Below, one piece after another: positions 11,195-15,782 of a stretch of 20,019 bases of DNA (within the stretch, counting starts at the first letter, position 1; every line of letters begins with the position of its first letter). Both the position numbers and the translations under genes were made by a program. The DNA comes from a virus, in the IMG/VR virus record IMGVR_UViG_3300042868_008383, positions 1 through 20,019 of that record; one strand, written 5' to 3'. The notes under the pieces were generated by a model. It was not told the origin of the DNA. It saw nothing but the letters and a program-made list of their open reading frames with translations, and ran no database searches.

Positions 11195-11593
11195 TCAGTT
11201 GCCCTCGTCGTCAACTTTTGTCGCAGCCTTCGCTCCGCGCAGCTCCGGCAAGTCAAGACTGCCAGCAAGTGCGCGCAAATGCGACGGCAGCGCACCAGCC
11301 ACGCTGTCCTTGTCTCCGACCAACTTCTCGTCCGCAGTCACAGTCTCAACGCGGCCAAAGGCACGAGTCAGCGCCAGCTCAATCAGCGCAATCTGGTTCC
11401 GAGGGCCAACTTGATCCCACTTGTCGTCCTCACCCAAGAGCGCAAAGAGCCGCAACGCTGCGCGCCGCCCTGTCTCCTTCAAGAGCTTCTGACTGACCGT
11501 ATCCATCGCGTAGCGTGACTGCACCGCCGCCCGCTGAATCGCGTCATCGCCTTCTCGGTCCTTTGCAGGAACCAACTGTAGCTTCGATCCCAT
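11195..11593 (-). CDS. Candidate terminase small subunit or packaging-region protein
   Basis: The 132-residue, mostly helical protein starts MGSKLQLVPAKDREGDDAIQ. Segments such as LLKETGRRAALRLFALLGED and R-N-Q-I-A-L-I-E-L-A-L-T-R-A-F-G-R-V resemble the helical repeats in small-terminase-like phage proteins, and it is the first gene of the operon that leads to the large terminase. No clear helix-turn-helix is seen, so TerS is a positional suggestion. The start at 11593 is preceded by AGGAGG with 7-bp spacing; the longer in-frame start at 11716 would read through the structured leader and lacks a comparable site. A terminator-like hairpin follows the gene. Confidence 0.5.
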   Translation of the reverse strand: MGSKLQLVPAKDREGDDAIQRAAVQSRYAMDTVSQKLLKETGRRAALRLFALLGEDDKWDQVGPRNQIALIELALTRAFGRVETVTADEKLVGDKDSVAGALPSHLRALAGSLDLPELRGAKAATKVDDEGN

Positions 11594-11773: not shown

Positions 11774-11813
11774 ATGCACGAATTGCAAACATCTAACTAA
11801 CCCATTGTTTTTA

Positions 11814-12341
11814 TTATCGACTGCCGTGGTTATTGTGGTAGCCATATCTGATTTCAGCTTCTTTTCGCGCAGCTACAGCGTCCTCAAATTCTTTGAAGCG
11901 CCCCAGCACAATCGACTTTCCTTGGTGTCCGATGGTAGCGACGTAAGTCGTTTTGCTTTCTTTTCTGACTCCAAGCACACCAGTTGCGGTATTAGCCGGG
12001 ACTTTGCGGTTGCGCATATTGTCGCCGGGTCTGACTGACCGCAGGTTCTCCAGCCTGTTGTCAGCCGGGTTTCCGTTGATGTGGTCAATGTGATCCGGCC
12101 ACTCCCCGTGAGCAGCAGCCCACGCTACGCGGTGAGCGAAATAAAACTCGCTCAAAATTTTTCCGCCCTTATACCCATAGGTCCGCAAAGCAGTCAGCGC
12201 AGGCTTTCCTGCATACTTTGCGTTCCATGCGTCGAGCTTTTTAGCTGACCACGGAACCAAGTCAGCGGTTCTGATTCGCCAAGTCAGGCTCCCAGTGCTG
12301 GGGTCATAGTCTACAAATTGCGTGATCCGTTTCGGGTCCAT
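11814..12341 (-). CDS. HNH homing-type endonuclease with AP2 domain
   Basis: The 175-residue protein starts MDPKRITQFVDYDPSTGSLT. It has three parts: an N-terminal domain with Y-D-P-x-T-G-x-L-T-W and W-N-A-K-Y-A-G-K (12-46); an HNH core (70-101) with His70, D-H-I-D-H-I-N-G-N at 83-91 and N-R-L-E-N-L-R at 95-101; and a C-terminal AP2-type DNA-binding domain (about 117-165, G-V-L-G-V-R-K...Y-V-A-T-I...L-G-R-F-K). Such proteins are free-standing phage homing endonucleases that nick or cut DNA and spread themselves. All core residues are present. The start at 12341 has AGGAGG 5 bp upstream. It sits at the boundary of the two transcription units, a usual insertion place. Confidence 0.9.
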   Translation of the reverse strand: MDPKRITQFVDYDPSTGSLTWRIRTADLVPWSAKKLDAWNAKYAGKPALTALRTYGYKGGKILSEFYFAHRVAWAAAHGEWPDHIDHINGNPADNRLENLRSVRPGDNMRNRKVPANTATGVLGVRKESKTTYVATIGHQGKSIVLGRFKEFEDAVAARKEAEIRYGYHNNHGSR

Positions 12342-12402
12342 AGCGTCCTCCTGTTGGTAAAAACAGCATAGGCTAATACACCACAAAACACCATAAAAAT
12401 TT

Positions 12403-12428
12403 GACCGCAGAAAAATTTTTCTGGGGTC
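12403..12428. repeat. 26-bp near-perfect palindrome upstream of the HNH gene
   Basis: The core CAGAAAAATTTTTCTG (12408-12423) is a perfect 16-bp palindrome. It extends to GACC (12403-12406) and GGTC (12425-12428) with one mismatched pair between. It lies about 60 bp upstream of the HNH start, where an operator or a DNA-bending site would fit. Its A/T core is unlike the GC-rich surroundings. Confidence 0.6.
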
Positions 12429-12509
12429 GCCAGCTAGTTACACCGTCAAAATCATTCTGCCCCCCGCCGGGCCACCGGGGTGGGGGGTCGCGCGCCCGAT
12501 CCCAAGCCC

Positions 12510-12699
12510 TGACTCGGCGCAAGCCCCTGATTTTGCTACACTTTCCAGCCCCTGACTTGCGCTGACTCGCCATGACTGCGCGTCGCTGACTGCGTGCCGC
12601 GTGCTGACTTGCCTTTGTCGCTCATTGTTTAACGTCAAACGGTTTCGCGGGCTGACTGCGCCGCGCCATGCGCCGCGTGCCGCTTGGCGCTGACTGACT
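12510..12699 (+). repeat. Cluster of nine same-strand TGACT motifs (mostly CTGACT)
   Basis: TGACT starts at 12510, 12553, 12563, 12573, 12587, 12605, 12653, 12691 and 12695, all on the plus strand with no AGTCA in the interval. Eight of nine are preceded by C. Three lie exactly 10 bp apart, on one face of the helix. By chance about 0.2 would be expected in 190 bp. The stretch has no supported gene, so codon usage cannot explain it. It could be an array of binding or priming sites. Confidence 0.7.
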
Positions 12700-12757: not shown

Positions 12758-12809
12758 CATTGGTATGCAATTGGTCTGCTTTCCGTGAATTGGTCTGCAA
12801 TTGGTATTA
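12758..12809 (+). repeat. Two pairs of 11-bp ATTGGT iterons
   Basis: Four 11-bp units: CATTGGTATGC (12758-12768), AATTGGTCTGC (12769-12779), AATTGGTCTGC (12788-12798), AATTGGTATTA (12799-12809). They form two back-to-back pairs separated by 8 bp. An 11-bp period is close to one helical turn, so a protein could bind all four on one side. This is the form of replication-initiator iterons or of a tandem operator. Confidence 0.65.
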
Positions 12810-12820
12810 TGTGCGTTTCT

Positions 12821-13318: not shown

Positions 13319-13354
13319 AGTCAAGCTTGACTATGACTGCTTTTATCGTGTAAC
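13319..13354 (+). promoter_or_regulatory. Putative rightward promoter with palindromic operator
   Basis: TTGACT (13327-13332) and TGTAAC (13349-13354) are 16 bp apart. The -35 hexamer is the right half of a perfect 14-bp palindrome AGTCAAGCTTGACT (13319-13332), so a repressor bound there would block polymerase. The late promoter at 11738-11773 shows the same design. A first gene starts 51 bp after the -10. Confidence 0.55.
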
Positions 13355-13363
13355 TCTGGGACA

Positions 13364-13385
13364 CCGCCCGCAATCCCGTGGGCGG
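13364..13385 (+). other. Leader hairpin upstream of the AAA+ operon
   Basis: CCGCCC (13364-13369) and GGGCGG (13380-13385) form a 6-bp GC stem around a 10-nt loop, within the presumed leader and about 20 bp before the first ATG. It might shape translation of the small membrane peptide; no T-run follows. Confidence 0.35.
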
Positions 13386-13405
13386 CACTGCTAGGAACCT
13401 GACCA

Positions 13406-13498
13406 ATGAAACCGACACTGACTGACTTGATTGATGCGGCCTGCGGGTGCGCTGTTTTGTTTGGCCTTCTGGCCCTTGGCCTTTGGGTGACCCCATGA
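13406..13498 (+). CDS. 30-residue single-pass membrane peptide
   Basis: The ATG at 13406 (AGGA 9 bp upstream) gives 30 residues starting MKPTLTDLIDAACGCAVLFG, followed by LLALGLWVTP. Residues about 12-28 form one membrane segment. The TGA overlaps the AAA+ ATPase start as ATGA (13495-13498), so translation is probably coupled. It is the first gene after the rightward promoter. No family can be assigned at this length; it could anchor, regulate or signal for the downstream ATPase system, or be merely a translational leader. Confidence 0.5.
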   Translation: MKPTLTDLIDAACGCAVLFGLLALGLWVTP

Positions 13499-14682
13499 CC
13501 GCGATTTCAAACGCACAACGCGCTGCCCTGCGCCGCGCCATTGCCGCAAGCCCTGACTGGCCCGCCTATCGCCGGACGCATGGCGTTGACACTGCATCCC
13601 TTGGATCAGCCCGCGCTGTTGACGTTGCGCGACACCTTGGCCTTGACGTTGAAGCAATCATTGGGGGCGCGGCCCCCGCACATGAGGAAACCCCCGACAT
13701 GAACGCTATTCCTGCCCCCGCTGCGCCCGCTGGCCTGTTTGACAAGCGGACCCCTGTTGCCCCCGCCATTGCGGCCCCTGTTGTGCCTGCGGGCGACGTT
13801 GGCGCGGCTTTGGCCGTGCTGGCCGGGGCTTTTGGTGGTGGCAATGTGCAGCCTGCCCTTGACGCCTTGGGGGCGCGAATTGCTGCCCTTGAAAGCGCCG
13901 CGCCCCGCCTGCTTGTGATCGACACAGAGGGCCGCGCCCTTGGCGACGAATTGCCGGAAACCCGTCACCCCATGCTTGAAACCCTTGTTCGCCTTTTGGG
14001 GGCGCGGGATGCGGCTGGCCGCAGGCTGAACGTGTGGATTTCTGGCCCGACAGGATCAGGCAAAACGCACGGGGCCAAGCAGGCCGCTGCGGCCCTTGGT
14101 CTTGCTTGGGGTTTCCATGGGGCGATGTCCATGGCGCACGAATTGGTCGGATTTATCGACGCAGGCGGGAATTACCATGAAACGGTTTTCGTTGACCGTT
14201 TCCGCAATGGCGGGCTTTGCCTGCTTGACGAATTGGACAGTTGGTCCGCTGAAGCGACGCTTTGCCTAAACGCTGCGCTAGCCAATGGCGAGATTTCCTT
14301 GCCGACAGGCGAGATTGTTTCCCGCCATGCTGACTTTGCCTGCGTTGGCGCTGGCAACACATGGGGCGCGGGCGCAACAGCCGAATTCGTCGGGCGCAAT
14401 CGCCTTGACGCTGCGTTTCTGTCACGCTTTGCCGCAAAACTTGCTTGGGGATATGATGAAAAACTGGAAAGCGCCATTTGCGGCAATCCCGCTTGGGCCG
14501 CGCAAGTGCAGCGCGCCCGCAAAAAAGCCGCAACGCAGGGGCTGAAAATCATCATTGACCCCCGCGTCAGCATGGCAGGGGCCGCAATGATTGCTGCGGG
14601 TTTCACTGCGCAGGAAGCGGCCAGCATGACGTATCTTTCCGGTCTGACTGACGCGCAAGCGGCAATGTTGGCGGGGGTCTGA
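13495..14682 (+). CDS. MoxR/CobS-like AAA+ ATPase
   Basis: The 395-residue protein starts MTAISNAQRAALRRAIAASP; this start overlaps the upstream stop. The N-terminal 60 residues are helical and may bind DNA or protein. A Pro/Ala-rich linker (about 59-100) follows, then an AAA+ core: Walker A GPTGSGKT (184-191), Walker B LCLLDE (241-246), sensor-1 region GAGNT (285-289), and N-R-L-D-A-A-F-L-S-R-F (302-312) with arginine-finger-like residues. The core order resembles MoxR, CbbQ and CobS ATPases, which remodel partners carrying von Willebrand A domains. The next gene looks like such a partner. The gene is richer in G+C and in Leu CTT codons than its right-hand neighbours, suggesting separate acquisition. 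Confidence 0.85.
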   Translation: MTAISNAQRAALRRAIAASPDWPAYRRTHGVDTASLGSARAVDVARHLGLDVEAIIGGAAPAHEETPDMNAIPAPAAPAGLFDKRTPVAPAIAAPVVPAGDVGAALAVLAGAFGGGNVQPALDALGARIAALESAAPRLLVIDTEGRALGDELPETRHPMLETLVRLLGARDAAGRRLNVWISGPTGSGKTHGAKQAAAALGLAWGFHGAMSMAHELVGFIDAGGNYHETVFVDRFRNGGLCLLDELDSWSAEATLCLNAALANGEISLPTGEIVSRHADFACVGAGNTWGAGATAEFVGRNRLDAAFLSRFAAKLAWGYDEKLESAICGNPAWAAQVQRARKKAATQGLKIIIDPRVSMAGAAMIAAGFTAQEAASMTYLSGLTDAQAAMLAGV

Positions 14683-14685
14683 TCT

Positions 14686-15546
14686 ATGGAAACCCTGACC
14701 CTTCCCCACAATATCGCAGGGGCGCGCTTTTCAGACCCCGCTGACTTTGCGGCCTATTTGCGCGGCCCCTGCGCGGTCTCGCCCTATTTTAAGGGCGGGC
14801 GCGATGATTGGGCGGGCGCAAGCCCTGCGGAAACCCGTGACCGGGCAAGCGCAGGCAACGCCAAACTGACTGCGCCCTGCGACCGCCTGCTTGACCGCAT
14901 GGAAACCGTTGACTTTGCAACATCCCGCTTTGCCACGGTTTCAGCCGTGGCAGGGGGCGCGCCCTGCGTCCCTGCCTATCTGGCAGGGTCACCCCTTGCC
15001 ATGCGTCGGCGGGTTCGCATTGCTGACGATCTGGCCCCGCTGGCCGTTGCCGTTGACATTGGCGTGTCGTGCAGCGTCAAGCACGACACAATTCAACGCA
15101 GGGGGGCCGCAGCACTGGCCCTTGTGCGATTGCTGGCCGCAACCCGCCCCGTGTCGCTTTGGGTTGTCTGCGGTCAAGCAACGGACCTATACGGCACGCC
15201 CCGCGATGCGGCCTTCGCAATTCGCCTAGACACGGCCCCGCTTGACGTTGCGCGGGCCGCTTGGCTGTTGGCCGCGCCCGAGGCTTTCCGCATGGCAGGC
15301 TTTGCTGCCACACACGCTATTGCTGGCCATGCTGACAAGCGGGGGGTCAATTGGCTACAGGACGATCACAGGGAGCATCCGCAATTGCTGCGGGATTGCC
15401 TGCCCGCCCTGACCGCCTGCGATGATTTCCTGATTGTGCCTTCCCTTATCACTGCGGGCGAAACCCAATTTGCCAGCGACGAAAAAGCGGCGGCATGGGT
15501 TCAGGCACAATTGGACCAGCACGGGGGCGCGGCAATGGCGGCCTGA
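14686..15546 (+). CDS. vWA-like partner protein of the AAA+ ATPase (DUF7192-like)
   Basis: The 286-residue protein begins METLTLPHNIAGARFSDPAD. The middle reads S-P-L-A-M-R-R-R-V-R-I, then P-L-A-V-A-V-D-I-G-V-S (118-128), followed by R-R-G-A-A-A-L-A-L-V-R-L-L and V-S-L-W-V-V. This strand, D-x-G-x-S, helix, strand order resembles a degenerate von Willebrand A metal site, as seen in phage proteins of the DUF7192 type; I name that family from memory. It starts 3 bp after the ATPase stop. MoxR-type ATPases act with vWA proteins, so the pair probably forms one chaperone-like system. Target and role are unknown. Composition matches the ATPase gene. Confidence 0.6.
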   Translation: METLTLPHNIAGARFSDPADFAAYLRGPCAVSPYFKGGRDDWAGASPAETRDRASAGNAKLTAPCDRLLDRMETVDFATSRFATVSAVAGGAPCVPAYLAGSPLAMRRRVRIADDLAPLAVAVDIGVSCSVKHDTIQRRGAAALALVRLLAATRPVSLWVVCGQATDLYGTPRDAAFAIRLDTAPLDVARAAWLLAAPEAFRMAGFAATHAIAGHADKRGVNWLQDDHREHPQLLRDCLPALTACDDFLIVPSLITAGETQFASDEKAAAWVQAQLDQHGGAAMAA

Positions 15547-15610
15547 CTGGCCGCCCCCTGCCTGCCCTGCCTTGGCGGCCCTTGCGGGGGCCGTCGTGCT
15601 TTCCCGCCCC

Positions 15611-15780
15611 TGCCTGCGGCCCTCTGGCCCTGCCTGCGGCCCTCTGGCCCTGCCTGCGGCCCTCTGGCCCTGCCTGCGGCCCTCTGGCCCTGCCTGCGGC
15701 CCTCTGGCCCTGCCTGCGGCCCTCTGGCCCTGCCTGCGGCCCTCTGGCCCTGCCTGCGGCCCCTGCGCCCTGCCTGCGGC
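15611..15780 (+). repeat. 20-bp minisatellite, seven perfect copies plus degenerate ends
   Basis: The unit TGCCTGCGGCCCTCTGGCCC occurs seven times without a mismatch from 15611 to 15750, then a variant copy (15751-15770) and a half copy (15771-15780). Related half units precede it. Each unit holds two GGCC sites. Because 20 is not a multiple of three and the unit lacks stops, all frames stay open here, so long frames crossing it are artefacts. Perfect identity implies recent expansion. It lies just after the vWA-like gene and before a promoter. Confidence 0.95.
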
Positions 15781-15782
15781 CC

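Follow-up and report, generated by a model that had tools for sequence, protein, structure and literature searches.

A TGACT word enriched across a podovirus-like phage genome, its conserved intergenic array, and their association with a phage-borne CobS-like ATPase and DUF7192 protein

Gene pairs resembling cobS and cobT, in which an AAA_5/MoxR ATPase adjoins a vWA-like partner, are widespread in tailed phages. Among related pairs of this kind, NorQ–NorD and CbbQ–CbbO remodel protein complexes. In the available part of PMC8651126 the viral CobST pair is described as a putative cobaltochelatase, with no mention of hyper-enriched words alongside it, and the ATPase family phrog_249 carries the annotation 'porphyrin biosynthesis'. 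A literature search for a TGACT-type motif found no described phage precedent, in line with the initial annotation of the DNA considered here.

The window (the whole 20,019-nt stretch of viral DNA that was analysed) covers part of the genome of a podovirus-like phage of roughly 41 kb, with a terminase and a portal related to their counterparts in Sinorhizobium phage phiM5. At 12510–12699, on the + strand, it carries an array of nine TGACT pentamers in the same orientation, starting at 12510, 12553, 12563, 12573, 12587, 12605, 12653, 12691 and 12695. Eight of these are CTGACT, the exception being ATGACT at 12573, and the sites at 12553, 12563 and 12573 are spaced by exactly 10 bp; a recount thus confirms the array as first described. 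The 0.2 sites originally expected by chance agree with a dinucleotide model (33 TGACT per 20 kb on both strands, or ~0.16 per strand per 190 bp). However, this baseline is the wrong one for the array, because TGACT is ~4-fold over-represented in the window as a whole, and at the window's own density ~0.7 sites are therefore expected in the 190-bp span. If the observed sites are placed uniformly, the probability of at least nine falling within 190 bp is ~1e-4. Nor does a Markov background of order 3–4, proposed at the outset as the test that could refute the array, predict its density: across 200 simulated versions of the window, no 190-bp stretch held more than five same-strand sites at order 3 or more than six at order 4.

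The array is flanked by an HNH endonuclease gene on one side and an ATPase gene on the other, and no conserved gene was identified over it. The earlier view that codon bias is not the cause holds good: the signal acts at the DNA level and is oriented on one strand in a non-coding slot. The region has no match to an Rfam structured RNA family, contains no tRNA, shows no excess of predicted promoters or terminators over shuffled sequence, and has an unremarkable predicted fold (z -0.24) when structured RNA or single-stranded DNA is considered. On the terminase side lies a small conserved ORF (11195–11590, - strand), terS-like by position and character, which is found in G001–G006 and in the distant relative L018 and has no phrog or NCBIfam match. 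G001 and G002 lack the HNH gene (11814–12386, - strand; phrog_99) at this position, their alignments to the window skipping 11794–12445, and the gene appears to have been inserted between the array and the small terS-like ORF. Immediately to the right of the array, at 12759–12816, are four ATTGGT(A/C)T units in two direct repeats, partly kept in G001–G003.

Loss of the array in close relatives had been named as a second possible refutation; instead, it is kept in G001, G003, G004 and G005 and in the genome fragments L006, L011 and L013. In the full-length relatives it occupies the same intergenic slot with 8–9 same-strand sites per 200 bp, the fragments have similar clusters of the same density, and 10–11-bp tandem units around CCCTGACT are frequent in the relatives' arrays. 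Across the close relatives TGACT ranks first or second among enriched pentamers, with 2.4 to 4.1 times as many sites as expected; in L018 it is depleted. Individual sites are also conserved beyond what is seen for permuted pentamers in the same alignments: 0.88 of aligned TGACT sites versus 0.72 between the window and G001, and 0.55 versus 0.41 in G003, with a small difference in G004.

TGACT is also frequent outside the array. In the window as a whole (1–20019), TGACT/AGTCA is the most over-represented pentamer, with 137 occurrences (78 on the + and 59 on the - strand); a dinucleotide model predicts 33, and a third-order Markov model 78. When the protein sequence and codon usage are held fixed in a synonymous-codon shuffle, genes still contain more TGACT than expected, 68 versus 23 on the coding strand and 41 versus 10 on the template strand; a further 26 lie in 3 kb of intergenic DNA. 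TGACT is selected at the DNA level across the genome, on both strands and both inside and between genes, and the array is the densest patch of this genome-wide signal. The initial annotation was right that the array is an oriented, non-coding signal at the level of DNA, but treated as local a word that is the top pentamer genome-wide. Outside the arrays, TGACT spacing gives no clear 10-bp peak of the kind that helical phasing would produce. A second, small group of sites lies by the start of the ATPase gene (13319–13427; + strand at 13328, 13334, 13419 and 13423, - strand at 13319), and equivalent sites are present near the ATPase start in G001–G003 and G005. As regards other words, CCWGG is wholly absent from the window (~23 expected per strand word) and nearly so from its relatives, TGAGT is depleted (8 versus 33), and CTCAC/GTGAG is strongly depleted too.

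The related phage phiM5 has a word of its own. Its genome contains 423 TGACA versus 62 expected, with no enrichment of TGACT. With codon usage controlled, the ratio of observed to expected TGACA lies between 4.7 and 6.4 for each strand in each quarter of the genome, and its density is about equal in intergenic DNA and in genes. The TGACA clade has no array comparable to that of the window. There is no TGACA excess in 50-kb stretches (rather than whole replicons) of the Sinorhizobium meliloti plasmid pSymB (53 versus 63 expected) or of S. meliloti phage 16-3 (61 versus 77), and TGACA therefore seems to be a property of the phage lineage rather than of its host.

When gene content is compared among the motif-bearing lineages (phiM5, the window family, G015 and G016 with TAGCT, G030 with GTTAA, G010 and G011), the only genes common to all of them are an ATPase and a DUF7192 protein, which in the window are encoded beside the array (13447–15546). 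The first gene (13447–14682, + strand; 411 aa, Pfam AAA_5, phrog_249) likely starts at the ATG at 13495. Its product is a MoxR/CobS/CbbQ-type AAA+ ATPase, as found in CobST and MoxR–vWA pairs: its top fold matches place it closest to CbbQ/NorQ, its sequence matches include both CobS and CbbQ/NorQ, and it is 45% identical in alignment to the phiM5 ATPase. The second gene (14686–15546, + strand; 286 aa, Pfam DUF7192, phrog_1909) encodes the partner. In its structure model (pLDDT 91) the top fold match is the vWA domain of NorD, a weak one (E 0.0098, TM 0.27), which hints that the protein may be vWA-like. In bacterial genomes, relatives of DUF7192 were found at only two loci. Just downstream of this gene, 15608–15782 holds 8.8 copies of a 20-bp tandem repeat, CCCTGCCTGCGGCCCTCTGG, with a 98% match.

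Scanning IMG/VR with the two proteins gathered phages with many different hyper-enriched words, TAGCT, GTTAA, GGCCA and AGTAC among them. We compared non-redundant, length-equalised 10-kb segments with two control sets, one selected by DNA polymerase and one by portal protein. The top pentamer reaches a z of at least 9 in 28 of 79 pair-bearing segments versus 7 of 78 controls (Fisher, 5e-5), a difference that is modest against the portal control alone (P 0.01), and for hexamers the difference from the two control sets together has P 7e-9. Isolates point the same way: the top hexamer is enriched 10.7-fold in phiM5, 8.1-fold in P106B (CCTGGA), 7.5-fold in the Tunturiibacter phage Tunturi_4 (locus L262; TCCTAG) and 5.4-fold in Kudefre (GCTAAG), versus at most 3.4-fold in eight phages lacking the pair and a host plasmid stretch. 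Lineage-specific, hyper-enriched 5–6-mers are thus strongly associated with the phage-borne ATPase/DUF7192 pair, although shared ancestry inflates simple counts of pair and word, and IMG/VR contigs are partial. Some phages carry the pair with no strong word (G019/L147, L148, L150 and L053), which means that having the pair is not enough to predict a word. In the more distant CobST-type viruses HHTV-2 and P-SSM2, composition or structural-gene codons dominate the word counts, and Staphylococcus phage EW1 was left out of the count because its top word is Shine-Dalgarno-like. Further words seen in the survey include GTTAA at 5.3-fold in a T7-like phage (L096/G030), GGCCA at 3.8-fold with 760 sites (L082/G029), and GGTAC at 3.7-fold (354 versus 97) in Lactobacillus phage 3-521 (L265), which has a related AAA ATPase.

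The word also tracks the front end of the ATPase. In the structure model, four helices at approximately residues 20–74 (13504–13668, + strand) form a separate N-terminal domain, modelled with a confidence above 90. An iterated profile of this domain converges on 22 ATPases, all 22 of them from genomes enriched in the TGAC core, and a scan with it found no additional lineage. Pair-bearing genomes without the domain lack this core enrichment. The better of the two ratios, for TGACA or for TGACT, has a median of 4.5 at loci with the domain (1.97–7.0, n=21) and of 0.95 at pair-bearing loci without it (0.5–2.1, n=94). Carriers of the domain do not form one clade on the AAA-domain tree, since L079 and L138/L139 fall elsewhere; among these, L079 is a weak case at 1.8–2.0-fold only, and the word of L138 is best given as CTGAC/CTGACA. 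Across all ATPase N-terminal clusters, pairs from the same cluster share a top-3 pentamer in 51% of cases, against a comparison value of 5.5%. The TGAC core is strongly associated with one type of ATPase N-terminal domain, and we propose from these sequence comparisons that the variable front end of the ATPase is probably what reads the word. The domain matches no known DNA-binding or other family, and its binding to DNA is therefore something that we infer.

Several other explanations have to be weighed against recognition of the word by the ATPase. The array could be a separate local element, such as origin iterons, a packaging site or an operator, serving another phage protein, with the genome-wide enrichment caused otherwise. 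Its 10–11-bp phasing, its conserved position and its slot, which lies between the terS-like small ORF and the early genes and in phiM5 holds the genome ends, would suit such an element, and binding of an initiator or repressor at the array itself, as originally suggested, is possible. We nevertheless regard a purely local role as unlikely, as the array pentamer is also the first or second genome-wide word in the relatives that bear the array, and ~250 scattered sites would titrate a packaging or origin protein. Somewhat more doubtful is the notion that the ATPase/DUF7192 pair merely marks lineages in which some other factor, or a mutational or compositional bias specific to the lineage, makes the words. 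The common ancestry of many loci, the pair-bearing phages with no strong word and the modest pentamer contrast with the portal control are compatible with it; the extra conservation of individual sites, the enrichment that remains with protein and codon usage fixed, and the tracking of TGAC by the N-terminal domain across separate positions in the AAA tree and otherwise dissimilar genomes are not what it leads one to expect.

Primase start sites, another of the original suggestions, would make TGACT/AGTCA the priming signal of the phage and the array a priming-rich origin. The array is indeed non-coding, lies beside early genes and has local strand polarity, the relatives encode PrimPol and PolA, and the T7 primase site, given as (G/T)2GTC (PMC12839067), has a GTC core that also occurs in AGTCA and in TGTCA. 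However, lagging-strand sites should be skewed, whereas in phiM5 the two strands are equally enriched in each quarter of the genome. Related motifs moreover occur with unrelated primases, PrimPol in G001 and phiM5 (with no BLAST match between the two) and a T7-gp4-like primase-helicase in G015 and G030, while G019 has a PrimPol and no motif, and phage T7 has no such enrichment (top pentamer 2.1-fold). On account of strand symmetry and primase diversity we reject a link to priming and consider it improbable as an explanation. Chi-type sites are short words that occur at genome-wide density, which the length and density of the pentamer resemble, and a host recombination or repair signal protecting phage DNA had likewise been suggested. 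This we think highly improbable: the phiM5 motif is in excess neither in the pSymB stretch nor in that of phage 16-3, controls on which a host Chi is rejected for phiM5, its enrichment is strand-symmetric, and pair-bearing phages of related hosts differ in motif. Equally remote is a target of a phage DNA methyltransferase or another anti-restriction effect. According to the available part of PMC8651126, viral genomes encoding Dam can be rich in GATC, and the avoidance of CCWGG indicates that restriction-type selection acts here, but over-representation is the opposite of avoidance. We reject a methyltransferase target on a search of 16 motif-bearing genomes for PF01555, PF00145, PF02086 and PF05869, none of which scored above its cut-off there; control genomes did give matches.

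The explanation that we favour, to which we assign a probability of about one half, is that the N-terminal domain of the ATPase reads TGACT as a self-tag and that the array serves it as a platform for loading or autoregulation, a function that we infer. Under this explanation, binding of TGACT by the N-terminal domain would recruit the ATPase ring and its vWA-like partner to phage rather than host DNA, and the ring would then probably remodel or evict DNA-bound proteins during takeover or replication. Since pairs of the NorQ–NorD and CbbQ–CbbO type remodel complexes, the most likely activity would be to displace or remodel proteins bound to phage DNA. The phased array, which lies upstream of the ATPase gene, could serve as a high-affinity loading site, as an autoregulatory operator, or as both.

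More broadly, and more tentatively, these observations may reflect a self-recognition system of tailed phages. In it, a vWA-like partner and a CobS-like AAA+ ATPase, the N-terminal domain of which reads DNA and can be swapped, would act on a lineage-specific 5–6-bp word selected genome-wide, and many viral 'CobST' pairs would not be cobaltochelatases. If so, one protein imposes a global sequence constraint on the evolution of phage genomes, and a single phage module moulds an entire genome into a readable tag of self versus non-self. It would also give a new function to the widespread viral CobST pairs, which are now annotated as porphyrin or cobalamin enzymes. A DNA-recognition code of this kind would be directly testable because each lineage brings its own word and its own reader domain, and word statistics could be applied to any phage genome to predict the word that its module reads.

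How, then, does this system relate to those already described? With the viral CobS/CobT-like pairs it shares an AAA_5/MoxR ATPase, here beside a possibly vWA-like partner, the CbbQ/NorQ-like fold of the ATPase and the profile match to CobS, but it differs in its lineage-specific, hyper-enriched 5–6-mers and in a variable N-terminal domain that tracks them, neither of which metal chelation would predict. Like T7-type primase sites, its sites are short and dense and contain GTC (in AGTCA and TGTCA); unlike them, they show no strand skew in phiM5 and accompany unrelated primases, and T7 itself has no comparable enrichment. The array resembles origin iterons and terminase-binding repeats in being a non-coding, same-strand array phased at 10–11 bp in a conserved slot near packaging genes, whereas its TGACT unit is spread genome-wide. 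As in Chi, KOPS and DNA uptake sequences, a short asymmetric word is dense across the replicon and apparently has one protein reader. In contrast to these, the word here is phage-specific, not enriched in the host DNA examined and strand-symmetric in phiM5, it changes between lineages, and its reader is apparently a phage AAA+/vWA module.
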